Shown: in pieces, positions 47,591-60,621 of the stretch
Numbering within the stretch: position 1 is the first letter of the stretch
How the letters are laid out: every line of letters starts with the position of its first letter
DNA from: Verrucomicrobium sp. BvORR034
Lineage (GTDB): Bacteria; Verrucomicrobiota; Verrucomicrobiia; Verrucomicrobiales; Verrucomicrobiaceae
Length of the DNA stretch: 64,000 nt
Reading direction: 5' to 3'
Assembly (NCBI RefSeq): GCF_000739635.1
Contig: NZ_BATQ01000147.1
Location: 1-64,000, forward strand
Notes under the pieces: generated by a model
The model's input: the letters and a program-made list of their open reading frames with translations, nothing else
Told to the model about the DNA's origin: nothing
Database searches by the model: none
Program-made: the position numbers and the translations under genes

Positions 47591-48997
47591 TCACGGTCGT
47601 TTCCCTGCCTCAACAAGACGGATCACACCTCGTTCCAGAGAGGCTTGAAGCCGGAGCTGGGGAGGCTTACCAGGTTTGAACCAACGTCCGCCGGCATGGG
47701 AAAACTTGCCCGTGGCATCTTCCACCACCACCCCAGCCCCCGGCATCACCAGCACTTCACGATCCTGCGGCACCACCAGATCCACCTCCCCTTGCCCGGC
47801 AAACTCCCACTGCTGTCTGGTGGGTGCGCTGCCGGGGTTGAGCAGCACTTCCGTTCCCGCCAGGGTCAGCACCGCCTCTGACACGCGCTCCAGGGGAAAC
47901 TCCAGCTTCAGGTTCTGGTTTAGTTCCGTGAACCATCCCTTGCGGGTCTGCACATAGCGAACCTCAGGCAGGGTCTGCTCCGCCCCCTTTTTCAGCCGCA
48001 CGCCAGTGAGCACCACGCTCCAGACCATGCCATGCCCGCTGGCATCCACTTCAATCTTTGGACTGGCCCCGGCCACGATGTCCAGGTTGCCTTCCTGAAA
48101 AGTGCCGGAGAGTTTCAAGTCTCCTTTCAGAGGCAGGTCCGGGCCCACCACCACCTGATTGCGCTGGTACGGGGTGGCCAGCAGGGAACCGGTCGTGGCC
48201 AGGCACACCAGCATTCCCACAATGGCCGCGCCGCTGCGGGGATGCTTCAGCAGCCAGTCAAAGCCCCTGGCGAACCACTGCCGGTGCTCCAGCACCTGGG
48301 TGCCGGTCCAGAGACCAGCACAGGTGAACCACATGAGCCCCATCGCCCACCAGGTGTCGGTGAGAAAGTGGCCTCCTTGAACCGCACGGGCCAGCCCGAT
48401 GAGCCAACCCAGCACCAGCCCGCCCCACAACCCCGCCCACGCCAGTTGCGCGTTCCGGCGTCGGTGGATGAAGTAGTAGGAGAAAAAGAAGAACCCCATG
48501 GTGGCATGCCCGCAGGGGAAGGATTTGCCGGTACTGCTCACGTCCCGCACCCAGACCGGTTCATAGGCATGGCGTCCGCCAAACTCCACCACGTCCCGTG
48601 GTCGGGGCCGACCCCAATGATCTTTGAGGATGGCATTTGCCACCAGACCTGGCCCCATGGCGAGCACCAATGCGAGATACACGGTGGCGAAGTTACGCTC
48701 CGCCGGCAGACGCCGCCCCACCTTCAATACGAGCCCCCCCAGGGCCACCAGCACCGCCAGCATGGCTGGCAACGTGCCAAAGTGGTAGAGCACATGCCAG
48801 GGGAACGTACCCCCCATGTGCCAGCCCGTCTCCGATGAATGGACCAGGCGCTGAAACTTCAGGTCAGCCCCTGTCAGGTTCATGAGATAACTTCCCGCCA
48901 CCAGCACCAAAGCCGGCAAAGCCAGCTCCAGGGTCCAGGCGGGGATGCTGCGGGCCTGCCCCTCGCGGGGCCCTTCCAGGGTGGCGGATGAAGTCAC
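47591..48997 (-). CDS. PAP2-family phosphatase with a C-terminal soluble domain
   Basis: A 468-residue membrane protein starting at a GTG. Motif 1 is LKDHWGRPRPRD, motif 2 is SFPCGHATMGF with Cys where Ser is usual, and motif 3 is GLARAVQGGHFLTDT. Seven or so hydrophobic segments occupy residues 20-290. The last ~190 residues form a predicted beta-rich soluble domain (GDLKLSGTFQEGNLDIVAG, PEVRYVQTRKGWFTELNQNL) unlike standard LpxE/PgpB enzymes. Likely a lipid A or undecaprenyl-lipid phosphatase. The second PAP2 gene starts 79 bases downstream, so the two may be cotranscribed. Confidence 0.85.
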   Translation of the reverse strand: MTSSATLEGPREGQARSIPAWTLELALPALVLVAGSYLMNLTGADLKFQRLVHSSETGWHMGGTFPWHVLYHFGTLPAMLAVLVALGGLVLKVGRRLPAERNFATVYLALVLAMGPGLVANAILKDHWGRPRPRDVVEFGGRHAYEPVWVRDVSSTGKSFPCGHATMGFFFFSYYFIHRRRNAQLAWAGLWGGLVLGWLIGLARAVQGGHFLTDTWWAMGLMWFTCAGLWTGTQVLEHRQWFARGFDWLLKHPRSGAAIVGMLVCLATTGSLLATPYQRNQVVVGPDLPLKGDLKLSGTFQEGNLDIVAGASPKIEVDASGHGMVWSVVLTGVRLKKGAEQTLPEVRYVQTRKGWFTELNQNLKLEFPLERVSEAVLTLAGTEVLLNPGSAPTRQQWEFAGQGEVDLVVPQDREVLVMPGAGVVVEDATGKFSHAGGRWFKPGKPPQLRLQASLERGVIRLVEAGKRP

Positions 48998-49153: not shown

Positions 49154-50383
49154 CTAGAAGAACATGCGGAGGCCCACCAGTGTGGTCCAGCCGTCATAGT
49201 CGCCACCGTCGCCGCCGCCGCTCATGGTGTTGTATTCAACACCGCCCATAAGCTTCAGCTTGTGACCGTAGAGGTAGTAGTTGAGGCCCATGTAAACGGC
49301 CTGGTATTCGTCGCCACGACCACCGTCGGTGAGGTCAGGAGCAAGGCGCTCATAGCGGCTCTGAAGACGGAGACCGTCGTTGTCGCCGTGAGCGTACTGG
49401 TAACGCACCACGAGCTGGAGGCTGTCAGCCACATACACGGAGGGAGTCACGATGACACCCCAGACATCGCCCACTTCACCGAATCCGCTGGCACCAAGCA
49501 CATCAGTGTAGAGACCGAAGCGGCCCTGCTCGATGTTGGTGTTGAGGGAGAAGGCGTGCTCATAGCTGGCAGGACCTTCGGTGTTGGTGTTGTCAGTGCT
49601 GTACTGGTAGTCCAGCTTGGTGATGGCTTTTTCAAGACCAAGGGCAGGGCCCAGGTCGTAGCCCACGCTGGCCTGGATCACAGCGCCTTCGTCGAGACCA
49701 CCGAACTCAGGATCGTACTGGCCGCCGAAGGCTGCGAGTGCGTAGATGAAGTTGTCGATCTTGCCGTTGATCCACACGCCAGTAAGCTCAGCAGGGCGGA
49801 TCTGGTTGACGAGCAAGCTGCGCTCGAACACGATAATTTCCTTGGAGGAGGTGAAATACTCGTGGGAGAAGAACTTGGCCTTCGTCTTACCAACGCTGAG
49901 GTTGAACTTGTCGTTCGGAGCCCAGGTCAGGTAGAGGTCGTAGATGTCGCGATAGAAACCATCGCCCAGCTCAGGATTGGCACCGGGTTCAAGGTCGAAG
50001 TTCGGGTTCACGTCGATCTGACCTTCGAGCTTGAATTGACGAAGGATCTTCGACTTGAAGCCAAGGCGCCAGCGGCGCACTTCGATGTCACCCCAGCGGG
50101 TTTCTTCGGGACGGTCACCGGAGCTGAAGTCGCCCTGGTCAGAATCACCATCAGCCCACTGAAGCTGGATGCGGCCCTGAAGTGCGAACTCCTGGATGAA
50201 GTCGTTGTCGTCGTTCTTGTAGAGCGTGGCCAGTCCCCAGATCTTGTCGTAGATGGACTTTTCGGATCCGGCGGGTTGCACCGCGGGCTCAACGCCCTTT
50301 CCGGAGGCGACCATCACCTCACCAGCATGGGCGCTGGAGAGAAGACCTGCGGTAAGCAGGAACAGAGATGTTTTCAGTTTCAT
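49154..50383 (-). CDS. OprO/OprP-type (phosphate-selective) porin
   Basis: A 409-residue outer-membrane beta-barrel protein with signal MKLKTSLFLLTAGLLSSAHA. Alternating hydrophobic/polar strands with aromatic girdles are visible throughout (FALQGRIQLQW, VRRWRLGFKSKILRQFKLEGQ, DLYLTWAPNDKFNLSVGKTK, TGVWINGKIDNFIYALAAFGG, TPSVYVADSLQLVVRYQYAHG), matching the Porin_O_P family. The C-terminus is Met-Phe-Phe, the usual Bam-targeting aromatic end. It should pass phosphate or other anions through the outer membrane; the pst transporter 4.4 kb away fits that role. A terminator follows and hairpins precede it. Confidence 0.87.
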   Translation of the reverse strand: MKLKTSLFLLTAGLLSSAHAGEVMVASGKGVEPAVQPAGSEKSIYDKIWGLATLYKNDDNDFIQEFALQGRIQLQWADGDSDQGDFSSGDRPEETRWGDIEVRRWRLGFKSKILRQFKLEGQIDVNPNFDLEPGANPELGDGFYRDIYDLYLTWAPNDKFNLSVGKTKAKFFSHEYFTSSKEIIVFERSLLVNQIRPAELTGVWINGKIDNFIYALAAFGGQYDPEFGGLDEGAVIQASVGYDLGPALGLEKAITKLDYQYSTDNTNTEGPASYEHAFSLNTNIEQGRFGLYTDVLGASGFGEVGDVWGVIVTPSVYVADSLQLVVRYQYAHGDNDGLRLQSRYERLAPDLTDGGRGDEYQAVYMGLNYYLYGHKLKLMGGVEYNTMSGGGDGGDYDGWTTLVGLRMFF

Positions 50384-50413
50384 GCGTGTCTTGTCGGAGT
50401 TGTGTGTGTCGAT

Positions 50414-50445
50414 CGCCGAGGGGGCTCGGCGCGCCAATACTGGCG
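50414..50445 (-). other. two tandem hairpins in the porin 5' leader
   Basis: CGCCGAG-GGGG-CTCGGCG (50414-50431) is a perfect 7-bp stem, directly followed by CGCCA-ATAC-TGGCG (50432-50445), a 5-bp stem. Both lie 31-62 bases upstream of the porin ATG and could shape mRNA stability or translation. Confidence 0.5.
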
Positions 50446-50565
50446 TTGACACATAAAACCGTCGAGACAGGCTGTGTTACGATTGCGTCACGCATTGAGC
50501 AATTCCAAACATTCTGACACTCATGGAGAGTCGTGCGCAATGACGCTGCCACCTGGAACCGGTGA

Positions 50566-54818: not shown

Positions 54819-55625
54819 ATGAAATCCACCATCATCACCTCGCTGCTGGCCCTCGCGTTCACGGCCGGATTGAACGCCCAGAGCGTGCTGCGCGTGCGCG
54901 GCTCCGATACGCTGGGTGCGAAGCTTGTCCCCCAGTGGGCAGAACAGTTTAAGAAGCAGGGCGGCGGCGTCAGCTTTGACATCGCGGCTGAAGGCTCCTC
55001 CACCGCTTTCACCAACCTCGCCGCAGGCACCGCCGAAATCGGTATGTCCTCCCGCAAGGTGAAGGACGACGAGCGCACCTTCGCCAAAACCAAGGGCGTG
55101 TTCCTCACCGAACATGAAGTGGCCTGGGACATGATCGCCGTTGTGGTGAACAAGAACAATCCAGTGGCCAACCTGACCAAGAAGCAGATCGCTGGCATCT
55201 TCACCGGCGCGATCAAAGACTGGAGCGAAGTCGGCGGCACCCCCGGCCCGATCTCTGTGTACACCCGCAACACCTCCTCCGGCACCTACAAAGACTGGCA
55301 GACGCTGGCCATGAAGGGCAAGGACTACGCCTCCAGCAGCCAGAAGATGGCTGGCAACGAGCAGATCGTGGCTGAAACGGCCGGCAACGCCGGTGGCATC
55401 GGTTACGTAGGCCTCGCTTACGCTCATGGCAAAGGCATCAAAGCGATCTCCGTGGACGGCACCGCCCCCACCCCTGAGAACGTGAAAGGCTATGCTTACA
55501 GCCGCCCCACCTTCTTCTACACGAACGGCGCCCCTCAGGGCAAAGTGAAGGAGTTCATTGACTTCGTGCACAGCGACGCTGGCAAGAAGGTCTCCCAGCT
55601 GGTGGGCTTCATCCCCGCCAAGTAA
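54819..55625 (+). CDS. pstS: phosphate ABC transporter substrate-binding protein
   Basis: A 268-residue periplasmic binding protein with signal MKSTIITSLLALAFTAGLNAQ. VLRVRGSDTLGAKLVPQWAEQF, DIAAEGSSTAFTNLAAGTAEI, DMIAVVVNKNNPVANLTKKQI, ISVYTRNTSSGTYKDWQTLA (ligand loop) and a hydrophobic KVSQLVGFIPAK end match the PstS-like PBP family. It delivers phosphate to PstCA. The ATG at 54819 gives the signal. A strong terminator lies between it and pstC, which should raise pstS mRNA over the other subunits. Confidence 0.9.
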   Translation: MKSTIITSLLALAFTAGLNAQSVLRVRGSDTLGAKLVPQWAEQFKKQGGGVSFDIAAEGSSTAFTNLAAGTAEIGMSSRKVKDDERTFAKTKGVFLTEHEVAWDMIAVVVNKNNPVANLTKKQIAGIFTGAIKDWSEVGGTPGPISVYTRNTSSGTYKDWQTLAMKGKDYASSSQKMAGNEQIVAETAGNAGGIGYVGLAYAHGKGIKAISVDGTAPTPENVKGYAYSRPTFFYTNGAPQGKVKEFIDFVHSDAGKKVSQLVGFIPAK

Positions 55626-55763: not shown

Positions 55764-57695
55764 ATGAACGAGGAAAAGCCCAGCCCCAGCAGTGACTTTC
55801 AAGGTCTCATCAAGCCGCCCAGCTTCCTCGGGCTGCGGGTGGACCGCCAGAGCTTGATCAAACACTTTTTCACAGGAAGCGCCGCCGTCACGATCCTGAC
55901 GCTCTTCCTGATCATGTACTCCCTGCTCAAAGAGGGCACGGGGTTCATTCCCACCTACCAGTTTGAACTGAAGGTGTACCGCCAGGCCGGCCTTGAGTTC
56001 TGCGACTTCATCCAGAAGCCTCTCACGGAAAACACCGCGCTCCTGAGCAAACTGAACCGCGCTGTCAACGCAGACACCGCCACCCTCACCCAGAAGGCCC
56101 AGGTCCGCCGTGATGCCCTGTTCCTGGCCAAAGGACGGGTTGAGGAAAAAACAGCCCGCCTGCGTGAGGCCGTGACAGAGGCCGTCGAAACTGCCAATAC
56201 CCCTCCGGAAAAACTCGCACAGGCCCGCCAGGCGCTCAATGAGGCGAACGCAAAGGCCGTGGGAGAAGAGGCCTTCCCGGATGTGTACAGTGCGGAAGAA
56301 CGCCGCCAGATCGCGTCCGATCTCGGCACTCTGCAGCCTGATGCCGCCGAACCTCCCGCGATCATCAAGACCTTGAGCGCCGAGTTCGCCGAACAAGACC
56401 GCATCGCCAAGGAAAAGTACGCGGGTTTCCTCGAAGCCGTCGAAGCCTTCGAAGAGGCCACCGAACCGATCGTGGAGCTTCATGACGGGATCGCCGAGCT
56501 GGCCAAGTCCACCAAGGAAGCCGCGGTACAACAGCACATGGCCGAGGATGCCAAGGCCCAATTGCTGGCCGCCGCTGAATCCGCCAAGACCCCCGAAGCG
56601 AAAGCCAACTTCCAGAAAGAAGCGGATGCGACCTCGCTGGAGGCCATCGACTACAAAGGCAAGATCGAGCCCATCGTGGCCAAGCTTCCCGAGTATGAGG
56701 CCATGGTCCCGACCTATGTTGCCGCCATCAAGGCCGCAATGGAAAAGGTCCCCCAGAAGGGTGAAACCAAGGAGTCCACCGCACTGATCAACGAAGTGCG
56801 CAAGCAGCTCCCCAAGCACCTCACTCATGCTGAGGAGTCCCCGGCCCTGATGAAAGCCTGGCAGTGGGACAAGCCCATTCCGATGGTTCAAGCCCTTACC
56901 GCCTTCCTGTTCGGCGGCGACTGGATTACCAACAGCTCCTGGCAGGACTTTTACGGTGTGGTGCCCCTGCTGACCGGCTCCCTCCTGATCGCCGTGATCG
57001 CCCTGGTCATCGCCCTGCCCTTGAGCGTCGGCGCCGCGATCTACACGAACCAGTTCGCCTCGCCGCGCGAGCAGGAGCTCATCAAGCCCTTCATTGAATT
57101 CATCCAGGCCATCCCCTCCGTAGTGCTCGGCTTCATCGGCATCTCAGTGGTGGGCGACCTCATCAAGGAGACCAGCAATGTGGCCTGGTTGCAATGGATC
57201 CCCGGCTTCCCCGTCCAGGAACGCCTGAACATGTTCAACGCCGGCCTGCTGCTCGCCCTCATGGCCATCCCGACGATGTTCAGCCTCGCCGAGGACGCCA
57301 TCCAGAACGTGCCCCGCGCCTTCAGCGAGGCGAGCGAGGCTCTGGGTGCCACGAAGCTCCAGACCGTCTTTCGCGTGATCTTCCCCGCCTCCCTCTCCGG
57401 GGTGTTCGCCGCGATGCTCCTCGGTCTGGGCCGCATCATCGGTGAAACAATGGTGGTGCTCCTGGTCGCAGGCAACCGAATCGCCATCCCGGACTTCTCC
57501 GACGGCATCGGAACGGTCTTCCAGCCGGCCCACACCCTTACGGGCATCATTGCCCAGGAACTGGGTGAGGTGTCCAAGGGCAGCTCCCACTGGCAGGCGC
57601 TCTTCATGGTGGGCATCCTCCTGTTCACCATCTCGCTCCTCATCAACTTCGTCTCCCGCAAAGTCGTGAAGCGTTTCCAGCTTCCCAAGATCTGA
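55764..57695 (+). CDS. pstC: phosphate ABC transporter permease PstC with a long helical insert
   Basis: A 643-residue permease, about twice the usual PstC length of about 300. A first membrane segment lies at about 38-55 (SAAVTILTLFLIMYSLLKEG). Residues about 65-370 are Ala/Glu/Lys-rich and strongly helical, with heptad-like stretches such as AAVQQHMAEDAKAQLLAAAE, followed by the permease core (about 400-640): LTGSLLIAVIALVIALPLSV, EFIQAIPSVVLGFIGISVVG and the EAA loop EASEALGATKLQTVFRVIFP. The insert probably reaches into the periplasm as a coiled-coil hairpin. The ATG at 55764 is used. Confidence 0.9.
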   Translation: MNEEKPSPSSDFQGLIKPPSFLGLRVDRQSLIKHFFTGSAAVTILTLFLIMYSLLKEGTGFIPTYQFELKVYRQAGLEFCDFIQKPLTENTALLSKLNRAVNADTATLTQKAQVRRDALFLAKGRVEEKTARLREAVTEAVETANTPPEKLAQARQALNEANAKAVGEEAFPDVYSAEERRQIASDLGTLQPDAAEPPAIIKTLSAEFAEQDRIAKEKYAGFLEAVEAFEEATEPIVELHDGIAELAKSTKEAAVQQHMAEDAKAQLLAAAESAKTPEAKANFQKEADATSLEAIDYKGKIEPIVAKLPEYEAMVPTYVAAIKAAMEKVPQKGETKESTALINEVRKQLPKHLTHAEESPALMKAWQWDKPIPMVQALTAFLFGGDWITNSSWQDFYGVVPLLTGSLLIAVIALVIALPLSVGAAIYTNQFASPREQELIKPFIEFIQAIPSVVLGFIGISVVGDLIKETSNVAWLQWIPGFPVQERLNMFNAGLLLALMAIPTMFSLAEDAIQNVPRAFSEASEALGATKLQTVFRVIFPASLSGVFAAMLLGLGRIIGETMVVLLVAGNRIAIPDFSDGIGTVFQPAHTLTGIIAQELGEVSKGSSHWQALFMVGILLFTISLLINFVSRKVVKRFQLPKI

Positions 57696-57754: not shown

Positions 57755-58891
57755 ATGCACGCACCCGCCACTTCAGCCCTGCTGGAAAACCCCTTTGCGA
57801 AGCGCAGGTCGCACCGCGAGACCTACGAGTTCATCGTCAGGTCCGTCTTGCGCGGCGCCACGTACCTCATCCTGTTCGCCACCGCGGCGATCTTCCTCCA
57901 CATCATTGTCAAAGGTTCGCCCATCCTGTTCCAGGCCAAGGCCCCTTTCATCAATGTGGAGTTCCTCACGAAGCTGCCTGAAACCCTCCACGTGCTGGAG
58001 GACAAGCAGGGCCACATCTACAAGACCGACCCGAAAGGAGCGGATGCCATCAAGCATCAGCTCGGTGACAACCTCCGCCAGGAAAAGACCATCTCCTATT
58101 CCGGCGGCGGCATCCTCGGTCCCATCGTAGGCACCTTCCTGCTGGTGCTGGTCTGCATTGTGATTGCCCTCTTCTTGGGCATCTCGTCTGCGATCTACCT
58201 CAGTGAATACGCCAAGCCCGGCAAGTTCATTGAGTGGGTACGGCTGGCCATCCTGAACCTCGCCGGTGTGCCTTCCGTGGTCTTCGGCCTCTTCGGTCTC
58301 GGGGTCTTCGTTCTGGCTGCTCCCGTCTTTACCAACACCCCTCTGGATCGAGCCCTGCTGGTGATTCCGCTGGGATTCACCCAGATGAGCTTCCAGGGAT
58401 GGGACACGAGTGTCCTGAGCGGTGCCTTCACCCTCGCCTTCGTCATCCTTCCGGTCATCATCACCGCCAGTGAGGAGTGCCTCCGCGCGGTGCCGATGGG
58501 CTTCCGCGAGACTTCCCTTGCTCTGGGCGCCACCCGCTGGCAGACCATCTGGCGCAGCGTTCTCCCCTTCGCCATGCCGGGCATCCTGACCTCCAGCATT
58601 CTGGGCATCGCCCGCGCCGCTGGCGAGACGGCCCCGATCATGTTCACCGCAGCCCTGGCGTTCAAAGACAAGCTGCCCTGGCAGGGTGAAGCAGGCTTCG
58701 GCGGCGTCTTCACAGAATCCGTACAGGCCCTTCCCTATCACATCTACACCCTGGCGGCCCGCATCCCGCAGAATGAATACTCGGAGCGTGCCCAGTATGG
58801 TTCCGTTTTCGTCTTCCTCGTTCTCGTCATGACCCTTGCCACCGCTTCGGTCTTGCTCCGTCGTAAACTCCGCGCCAAATACAAATGGTAA
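57755..58891 (+). CDS. pstA: phosphate ABC transporter permease PstA with an extracytoplasmic insert
   Basis: A 378-residue permease, somewhat longer than the usual ~290. The first membrane segment ([20 protein letters not shown]) is followed by a ~65-residue soluble stretch ([40 protein letters not shown]) before the remaining membrane segments and the EAA loop ([20 protein letters not shown]). It pairs with PstC. The ATG at 57755 is preferred to an upstream TTG. Its stop lies inside the first codons of the first pstB (7-base overlap). Confidence 0.9.
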
Positions 58892-59733
58892 CCGCCGAAC
58901 CACCCCAAAAAGCCGTGGAAGTTCTCAAAACTACCGAAACGAAATCGGTCGAGACACCCGAGGCCGCCCCTACCGGGGAGACCATGATTTCCGTTCGGAA
59001 CATGGACTTCAACTACGGAACCAAGCGCGCCCTCCATGGCATCAACATGGAGATCCCTTCCCGCCAGGTCACCGCATTCATCGGTCCCTCAGGTTGCGGC
59101 AAGTCCACCCTCCTGCGCTGCTTCAACCGCATCAACGACCGCATCGCCGGAGCTCACATCTCTGGCGGCCAGGTGGTCATTAAAGGCAAGAACATCTATG
59201 ATGCCGATGTGGATACGACCCAGCTCCGCCGTCAGGTGGGCATGGTGTTCCAGAAGTACAACCCCTTCCCCAAGAGCATCTACGAGAACGTCGTGTACGG
59301 CCTCCGCATCAACGGTGTGAAGAAGAAGTCCGACCTGGATGACGCCTGTGAGTACGCCCTGAAGGCCGCGGCCCTCTGGGAGGAATGCAAGGACCGTCTG
59401 AAGGCCAACGCCTTCGGCCTCTCCGGTGGCCAGATGCAGCGCCTTTGCATCGCCCGTGCCGTGGCCGTCAAGCCGGACGTGCTGCTCATGGATGAGCCCT
59501 GCTCCGCCCTTGACCCCATCGCCACCCTCAAGGTGGAAGAACTCATCGTGGATCTGAAGAAGGACTACACCGTGGTCATCGTCACCCACAACATGCAGCA
59601 GGCCCGCCGCGTGGCGGAACTCACCGCCTTCATGTATCTGGGAGAGCTCATCGAGTTCGCTGAAACTGACCAGATCTTCGGCAATCCCCAGCAGAAGAAA
59701 ACGGAAGACTACGTCCGTGGTCAGTTCAGCTGA
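58885..59733 (+). CDS. pstB: phosphate ABC transporter ATPase PstB, first copy
   Basis: A 282-residue ATPase. After a ~35-residue polar N-terminal extension ([20 protein letters not shown]) come [20 protein letters not shown], Walker [12 protein letters not shown], the Q-loop region [19 protein letters not shown], signature [15 protein letters not shown], Walker [14 protein letters not shown] and the H-loop [14 protein letters not shown], all typical of PstB. It overlaps pstA by seven bases. A second, clearly paralogous ATPase gene follows 57 bases later. Confidence 0.94.
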
Positions 59734-59790
59734 TCACTCCGCCGCCCTCCCTCCCATTTCCGGCAAAAGAGTGCGAACCCTCCCTGCCCC

Positions 59791-60621
59791 ATGACTCAAA
59801 CAGTCGCCCCTCCTTCCGTGTCCAGTTCCTCCGCCAGCACTGCTGCTGCGTCGTCCGCGACCACGCAGCCGCTGCTGAAGATCAATGAAGTGGATTTCGC
59901 TTATGGTGCCCGCCAGACACTCTTCGGAGTCAACATGGGCATCGCCCAGCGCGAAGTCACGGCTTTCATCGGCCCCTCCGGTTGCGGCAAGTCCACCCTG
60001 CTGCGCTGCATCAACCGCATCAACGACATGATCGAAGGTGCCCGCATCACCAAGGGCAACATCACCCTGGGGAATGTGGACATCAACCACCCGGACCTCG
60101 ATGTCATCGCCTTGCGCCGCAAGGTCGGCATGGTGTTCCAGAAGTACAATCCCTTCCCCCGCAGCATCTTCGAGAACGTCGCCTACGGTCTCGAAGTGGC
60201 AGGCATGAAGAACAAGAAGCTCATCGCTGAGACCGTGGAACGCAGCCTGCGTTCCGCGACCCTCTGGGAAGAAGTGAAGGATCGCCTTCATGAAAGCGCC
60301 CTGGGCCTCTCCGGTGGTCAGCAGCAGCGTCTCTGCATCGCCCGCACCCTTTCCGTGAGACCGGAAGTGGTGCTCATGGACGAGCCCTGCGCCGCGCTGG
60401 ACCCGATCGCCACCGCGAAGATCGAGGAACTCATCCACCAGCTCAAGAAGGACTACACCATCGTCATCGTGACCCACAACATGGAGCAGGCCGTCCGCGT
60501 CTCTGACAAGACTGCCTTCTTCTACCTGGGCAAGTTGATCGAGTTCAACAACACCATGACCCTCTTCTCCACCCCGGAGAACGAACAGACCGAGCGCTAC
60601 CTGAGCGGCCGCATGGGTTGA
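59791..60621 (+). CDS. pstB: phosphate ABC transporter ATPase PstB, second copy
   Basis: A 276-residue PstB paralogue of the preceding gene. N-terminal Ser/Ala-rich extension (about 1-28), then [20 protein letters not shown], Walker [32 protein letters not shown], signature [15 protein letters not shown], Walker [14 protein letters not shown] and H-loop [12 protein letters not shown]. Both copies keep all catalytic motifs, so they may form a heterodimer or serve alternative conditions. A terminator follows. No phoU gene is present after it. Confidence 0.94.

Follow-up and report, generated by a model that had tools for sequence, protein, structure and literature searches.

The 64,000-nucleotide stretch of Verrucomicrobium sp. 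BvORR034 DNA analysed here (the window; contig NZ_BATQ01000147.1) carries a phosphate-transport operon in the order pstS-pstC-pstA-pstB-pstB, as read from open reading frames and from Pfam and NCBIfam families, so that its PstC is encoded alongside PstS, PstA and PstB (Table 1). Two start sites were chosen by eye: pstS is taken to begin at the ATG of MKSTIITSLLALAF, its frame itself opening at TTG 54720, and ATG 57755 is the likelier start of pstA, whose frame opens at TTG 57731. The two pstB copies form a tandem pair (58885-60621), and two pstB genes also follow pstC, by motif, in most of loci L042-L075. Near the operon, Pfam identifies a Porin_O_P (phosphate-selective porin) frame at 49154-50452 and a PAP2 phosphatase-like frame at 47591-48997. 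The same genome holds a second, compact phosphate-type system on contig C155 (L167:3009-5794), comprising a 289-aa PstC (235.2 bits), a 292-aa permease and a 307-aa protein that is PstS-like by eye, and lying near a TonB-dependent receptor-like frame.

Table 1. Features of the pst operon and of its PstC protein, in window coordinates
Feature	Coordinates	Strand	Evidence
pstS, phosphate-binding protein with signal peptide	54819..55625	+	TIGR02136 213.6 bits (cut-off 206.6); PF12849
pstC, 643 aa, ATG start	55764..57695	+	ORF; TIGR02138
PstC TM1, residues ~33-56	55860..55931	+	hydropathy; helix 28-59 in model
Insert, residues 58-378, predicted all-helical	55935..56897	+	AlphaFold2; no Pfam/NCBIfam family above cut-off
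N-terminal membrane-proximal segment, residues 58-85, ELxVYRxAGLExxD	55935..56018	+	conservation, 75 sequences
Variable distal segment, residues 116-211	56109..56396	+	length comparison; tree
C-terminal membrane-proximal segment, residues 366-398, FLFGGDWITNSSWQDFYG, runs into TM2	56859..56957	+	conservation
PstC permease core, residues 399-643	56958..57692	+	TIGR02138; E. coli PstC fold, Z 20.7
pstA	57755..58891	+	TIGR00974 229.5 bits (cut-off 193.45)
PstA TM1-TM2 loop, like one repeat unit	57962..58111	+	by eye
pstB copy 1	58885..59733	+	TIGR00972 387 bits
pstB copy 2	59791..60621	+	TIGR00972 377.8 bits

Family score, operon partners and fold identify the window protein as PstC, with phosphate transport as its predicted activity. 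The PstC family TIGR02138 matches residues 378-638 at 243.8 bits, above its cut-off of 196.45, and Pfam places BPD_transp_1 at 424-638 and nothing else on the protein. Preceding this core, some 320 extra residues separate the first two membrane helices. The AlphaFold2 model (residues 27-639) superimposes on residues 14-313 of E. coli PstC chain 9k3y_B with Z 20.7 and rmsd 4.7 over 282 aligned residues, and Foldseek retrieves 9k3x_B at E 1.5e-9; thus TM1 and the core find their counterparts in E. coli PstC, and the insert is additional. The E. coli protein (PDB 9k3s/9k3x/9k3y) shares the permease family, the fold and the partners PstS, PstA and PstB, but its solved chains number 319 residues and its TM1-TM2 loop lacks a comparable domain. 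A frameshift, a fusion or a chance reading frame was rejected as the origin of the long protein, since full-length insert-bearing proteins occur in 13 of 38 genomes searched, its own included, the other 12 being 41-97% identical to the window protein. The original sequence-only reading, which described a PstC with an insert of about 300 residues between its first membrane segment (TM1, ~33-56) and the permease core (from 378), is thereby borne out.

Residues 60-365 comprise 18.6% Ala, 13.1% Glu and 8.8% Lys with a net charge of -12, in keeping with the charged, Ala/Glu/Lys-rich and helical character first ascribed to this region. Structure prediction yields an all-helical insert both within PstC and in isolation. 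In the full PstC model, computed from 75 sequences, pLDDT runs at 76-92 in ten-residue blocks over residues 61-380, while the model as a whole is weaker (mean pLDDT 77.8, pTM 0.64), its core being less certain; residues 53-398 folded alone reach pLDDT 92.7 and pTM 0.83, indicating a compact domain rather than a loose coil. The prediction is thus of a compact helical bundle whose chain exits TM1 and re-enters the membrane at TM2, with two long helices in the PstC model (residues 77-129 and 234-273). Hydrophobic periodicity exceeded that of shuffled sequences in all six insert stretches (39 long sequences), the best period being 3.50, the heptad value of coiled coils, for residues 199-273, where none of 1000 shuffles was equally strong, and 3.6-3.75 elsewhere (3.60 for 61-129, 3.75 for 308-365). 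The initial description of the insert as coiled-coil-like is refined in that the model is of a folded bundle and not of one coiled coil.

Comparison with known folds and families gave no clear relative. No Pfam or NCBIfam family lies above cut-off over the window insert; Foldseek with the insert alone returned nothing at E <= 0.001 (best 0.024, TM about 0.1), and the best VIA-align match, a designed bundle at Z 9.6, falls under the noise level of about 13 for helix bundles. The same noise range holds the sensor domains of McpS (2yfa_B, Z 8.3, rmsd 3.3, 114 residues aligned), TorS (Z 8.0) and McpZ (Z 6.7). The claim is accordingly limited to a helical bundle, with no known fold family assigned to it, and the lack of a clear match does not by itself make the predicted fold new. 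A PDB sequence search gave only weak matches over the insert (best E 2e-4), mostly to helical or coiled-coil proteins among the 60 listed, and Pfam searches with 70 inserts returned 132 families at E <= 1, of which the 25 listed are scattered, each occurring in at most ten inserts, with a best E of 6.5e-5 in three of them; both sets of matches are taken as composition noise. The HBM sensor domain has two stacked helical modules between two TM helices; the insert is predicted to be all-helical and lies between TM1 and TM2. The Pfam family of HBM, PF16591, gave no match at E 0.001 in the organism's own genome (24 candidates scored; the control responded in one of 14), matched one of 38 relatives, below cut-off and not at pstC, and is absent among the five Pfam families listed for the window insert. 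As to mobile elements, the plasmid search found nothing matching the insert, and the phage search, in the 12 of 26 records listed, found matches to the PstC core only. PHROGs contains a weak match to the insert (phrog_13369, E 4.4e-4, function unknown). In phrog_6743, a phage family of 582 positions and unknown function, positions 330-530 match the PstC core at E 3.6e-27, so that a long stretch precedes the core in this family as well.

In type I importer permeases of the PstC kind the N-terminus is cytoplasmic, so that a domain in the TM1-TM2 loop would lie in the periplasm. Homology to E. coli PstC (alignment Z 20.7) accordingly argues for a periplasmic insert located on the PstS docking side, in line with the placement originally proposed. 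The acidic composition of the insert agrees with this site but proves nothing.

A search of public genomes with the insert profile yielded 79 loci (from the best 80 of 112 confirmed stretches), all belonging to Verrucomicrobiota by their record titles, the search patterns having been derived from the helical-insert family itself; names such as Opitutus and Prosthecobacter were taken to denote members of this phylum, which is also the one given for the named rows in both core trees. In a phylum-wide sample consisting of Verrucomicrobiota genomes, the profile matched 61 of 387 at E <= 0.001, in 11 cases along its full length and in 50 along parts of it, with open frames of 506-682 residues, and the remaining 326 gave no match; the PstC family was matched in 360 of these genomes and reached its cut-off in 261. 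The insert is thus common in part of Verrucomicrobiota and kept across several of its families, although not universal. The sequence-only reading would have been undercut had the insert already been described as common in the family: common it is, but the literature searched, which covered few subscription papers, contains no description of it. The helical insert is real and conserved.

The insert is under purifying selection, somewhat looser than that on the core, as judged from dN/dS values among three close species of 0.048-0.069 for the insert and 0.026-0.044 for the core. In an alignment of 74 loci and the window (75 sequences, alignment A2, leaving out the contig-end-cut L063, L096, L100, L113 and L114 of the 79; L084, L095, L109, L112 and L116 were additionally left out of alignment A3), conservation is 0.80 in the core, 0.67 in residues 58-85, 0.68 in residues 366-398 and 0.38-0.52 in between, and F61, Y72, G76, E78 and W366 are invariant. 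Conservation does not simply drop with distance from the membrane: the least conserved part of the insert is formed by helices 308-365 (0.38-0.39), which return to the membrane, and the distal tip stands at 0.43.

Insert length ranges from about 200 to 360 residues because the distal segment comes and goes. The spacing between Y72 and W387 is 315-318 residues in most Verrucomicrobiaceae loci, 283-292 in L068-L071 and 198-201 in L073 and L077-L079; most Opitutae and Chthoniobacteraceae have 207-218, L099 and L119 252-255, L090 and L115 314, and L076, L080, L081, L085, L103 and L107 337-359. The main part absent from short inserts is residues 116-211, which are missing in L073, L077-L079 and the Opitutae and Chthoniobacteraceae members except L099 and L119, where part is kept; a second variable spot lies at 271-300. 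On the core tree (75 rows), four changes are required to account for the label 'long', and L073 and L077-L079 sit apart from each other, in two separate places among long-insert Verrucomicrobiaceae. Most simply, with the direction being inferred, the distal segment was lost more than once. Its absence in separate lineages makes it dispensable for whatever the insert family shares, and suggests that the insert is modular.

Length alone is no novelty in a PstC, given the long proteins of the Pseudomonas or beta type, from whose insert the helical one differs. Open frames of 782-834 residues were matched in 19 of 38 genomes, one of which (G014) also has the helical type, and L163:2168-4585, L164:5710-8088, L171:5264-7648 and L172:5410-7734 encode PstC proteins of about 775-806 residues with an unrelated insert in the same place. 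The roughly 800-aa class resembles the 677-aa P. aeruginosa PstC (WP_003123734.1; 36% identity over 91% of the query), encoded in a pst operon on a record labelled plasmid, and both have a large extra domain in the same place as the helical insert, an FFGxxW-type anchor and a long PstA as neighbour. Judged by eye, the insert of the 800-aa class is probably beta-rich; labelling it a beta-propeller is a guess prompted by the beta-rich sequence and by weak matches in one protein (E 0.01), and a PDB search with it gave no match. Kinship between the helical insert and the Pseudomonas-type or beta-type insert was considered and found no support: profile-profile comparison gave a probability of 0.2% with six columns aligned, and the two align at the FFGxxW anchor only, which ends both before TM2. 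A tree of 63 cores separates helical from beta-type (Pseudomonas-type) proteins, in clades each supported at 100/100. This tree comprised 45 insert-bearing rows (mostly every second one), ten beta-type, two mid-size and six 'canonical' rows, several of the last on very long branches and one, L157, taken from a 548-residue frame; the canonical loci L151, L152, L154 and L167 were missed by the motif and left out. The mid-size PstC proteins (about 390 aa; L170:4049-5221 and L022) have a smaller TM1-TM2 insert and form a clade of their own.

The neighbouring permease PstA varies in the corresponding loop. PstA frames of 708-724 residues, in which the TM1-TM2 arm measures 346-352 residues, occur at L081:9816-11978, L085:9798-11969, L103:6951-9077, L107:9816-11984 and L165:5567-7690, and no Pfam family covers the arm in the three that were scanned. 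Self-comparison of the arm profile gives off-diagonal matches beginning near offsets 80, 163 and 241; the strongest (97%, E 3e-11) has drifted by its end to an offset near 42, the value expected of units of about 40 residues. The arm consists of tandem repeats of about 80 residues, each possibly made up of two such units. In hhalign, 43 short PstA loops of relatives (L042 first) match the last unit of the long arm at E 1.9e-6 and the first at 7.3e-6. By eye, the window PstA loop looks like the short type with a single unit of about 50 residues, and duplication of such a unit is the probable origin of the long arm. The smaller PstA insert noted at the outset thus resembles one unit of an arm that some relatives carry as tandem repeats.

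With respect to regulation, it had been proposed that the inserts may replace part of a missing control of the transporter, an idea that found no support. The genome contains two PhoU genes, on contigs other than the window's, scoring 170.6 bits (above) and 109.5 bits (below) against the TIGR02135 cut-off of 130.25 and both over the Pfam cut-off. A PhoU-like gene, identified by motif, follows shortly downstream in 23 of the 79 insert loci (best 80 of 112 stretches). On these two grounds the insert was rejected as a PhoU substitute. In the loci nearest the window (L042-L075) the phoU motif was found downstream in none of 34, several of which have too little downstream sequence; at L165 the insert and the long PstA are accompanied by a PhoU-like gene (101 bits).

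The reading tentatively favoured here, at somewhat less than an even chance, is that the insert acts as a membrane-anchored domain that docks and retains PstS. An arm fixed on the docking side of the permease would hold PstS, the conserved ends of the insert would lie near the permease mouth, the soluble, positively charged PstS would be kept close to its transporter, and the distal segment would be an optional extension. Consistent with this, conservation within the insert peaks in the two short membrane-adjacent stretches, and a pstS-like frame lies directly upstream in 66 of the 79 loci (by motif; best 80 of 112 stretches), eight of the 13 loci lacking the motif starting within 1 kb of the locus end. 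The low conservation of helices 308-365 means that only the immediate ends of the insert support a membrane-proximal function. Median net charges are -10 for the insert and +5 for PstS (65 rows), with a Spearman correlation of -0.45 between the two. The control correlation between core and PstS is stronger (-0.57), so that charge complementarity may reflect shared ancestry, and charge coevolution was rejected as a specific signal. Speaking against docking, E. coli and the 326 sampled Verrucomicrobiota genomes lacking a match manage without the insert, its likeness to sensor domains recognising ligands or binding proteins stays within the noise for helical bundles (Z 8.0-8.3), and the HBM model matches nothing in this genome.

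Precedents are available from two directions. In MalF of the maltose importer MalFGK2, the P2 region sits in the TM3-TM4 loop, another loop than that holding the PstC insert. As reported (PMC3150292), P2 likewise extends a type I importer permease by a large periplasmic region, part of which contacts the binding protein MalE, but it spans MalF residues 91-271 and is built of beta-sheets and a short helix; no homology is claimed. According to two further papers, the 286-residue CtpL-LBD of P. aeruginosa is a predicted-helical periplasmic domain binding Pi-loaded PstS 1:1 with a KD of 3.7 uM (PMC4926252), and CtpL is counted among receptors with an HBM domain (PMC5126104); it belongs to a chemoreceptor rather than a permease, and its likeness to the insert is one of description. 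A structure entry that by its title pairs the TorS sensor domain with TorT, a binding protein, is also among the VIA-align matches of the insert.

A sensory role, in which the membrane-bounded bundle would read phosphate, an organophosphate or phosphate-loaded PstS and signal via TM1 to the transporter or to PhoU/PhoR, appears unlikely. The insert is bounded by membrane segments on both sides, as are the sensor domains of chemoreceptors and kinases, its segment following TM1 is conserved, and the McpS, TorS and McpZ domains are among its VIA-align matches. These Z values, however, are those of helical-bundle noise, and PF16591 found no match among the 24 candidates scored in the genome. Similarly improbable is a scaffold in which the PstC domain, with or without a PstA arm, recruits an envelope protein other than PstS, such as a porin or a phosphatase. 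L081, L085, L103, L107 and L165 do carry arms of about 340-360 residues on both permeases, and the Porin_O_P and PAP2 phosphatase-like frames lie nearby, yet several lineages lack the distal end that would have to extend to a distant partner. The same absence weakens the original suggestion of a stalk touching or spanning the cell wall, which now seems very improbable, even though conservation does not fall outward: the two long helices would suit such a reach, but lengths of about 200-360 residues are ill-suited to a fixed distance, and no wall-binding family is found among the Pfam matches listed (25 of 132).

Rather unlikely, too, is that the insert is mostly stabilising or near-neutral, a folded domain that a permissive loop tolerates and that has no specific partner. 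The unrelated insert occupying this loop in relatives indicates that the site is permissive, length varies, and conservation is no more than moderate over most of the insert; against this stand an insert dN/dS of 0.05-0.07, the five residues invariant in 75 sequences, and retention across several Verrucomicrobiota families. Returning to PstS docking, a broader and more doubtful version would make the PstC/PstA TM1-TM2 loop a hot spot for docking arms, in which exchangeable arms tether PstS in place of free diffusion and so tune the importer. It draws on the presence in the Verrucomicrobiota PstC loop of at least two unrelated domains, one helical and one probably beta-rich, and of a tandem-repeat arm in some PstA proteins.

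High-affinity phosphate import is typically the work of Pst, which is also the input to Pho regulation, and the solved structures of the complete importer that were found come from E. coli, whose form is small. In one branch of Verrucomicrobiota the importer has a large folded domain, periplasmic by homology and unnamed in the family databases searched, whose naturally occurring long and short versions amount to a ready-made deletion series. Should the insert hold PstS, it would illustrate how such importers retain scarce binding proteins at their entrance.
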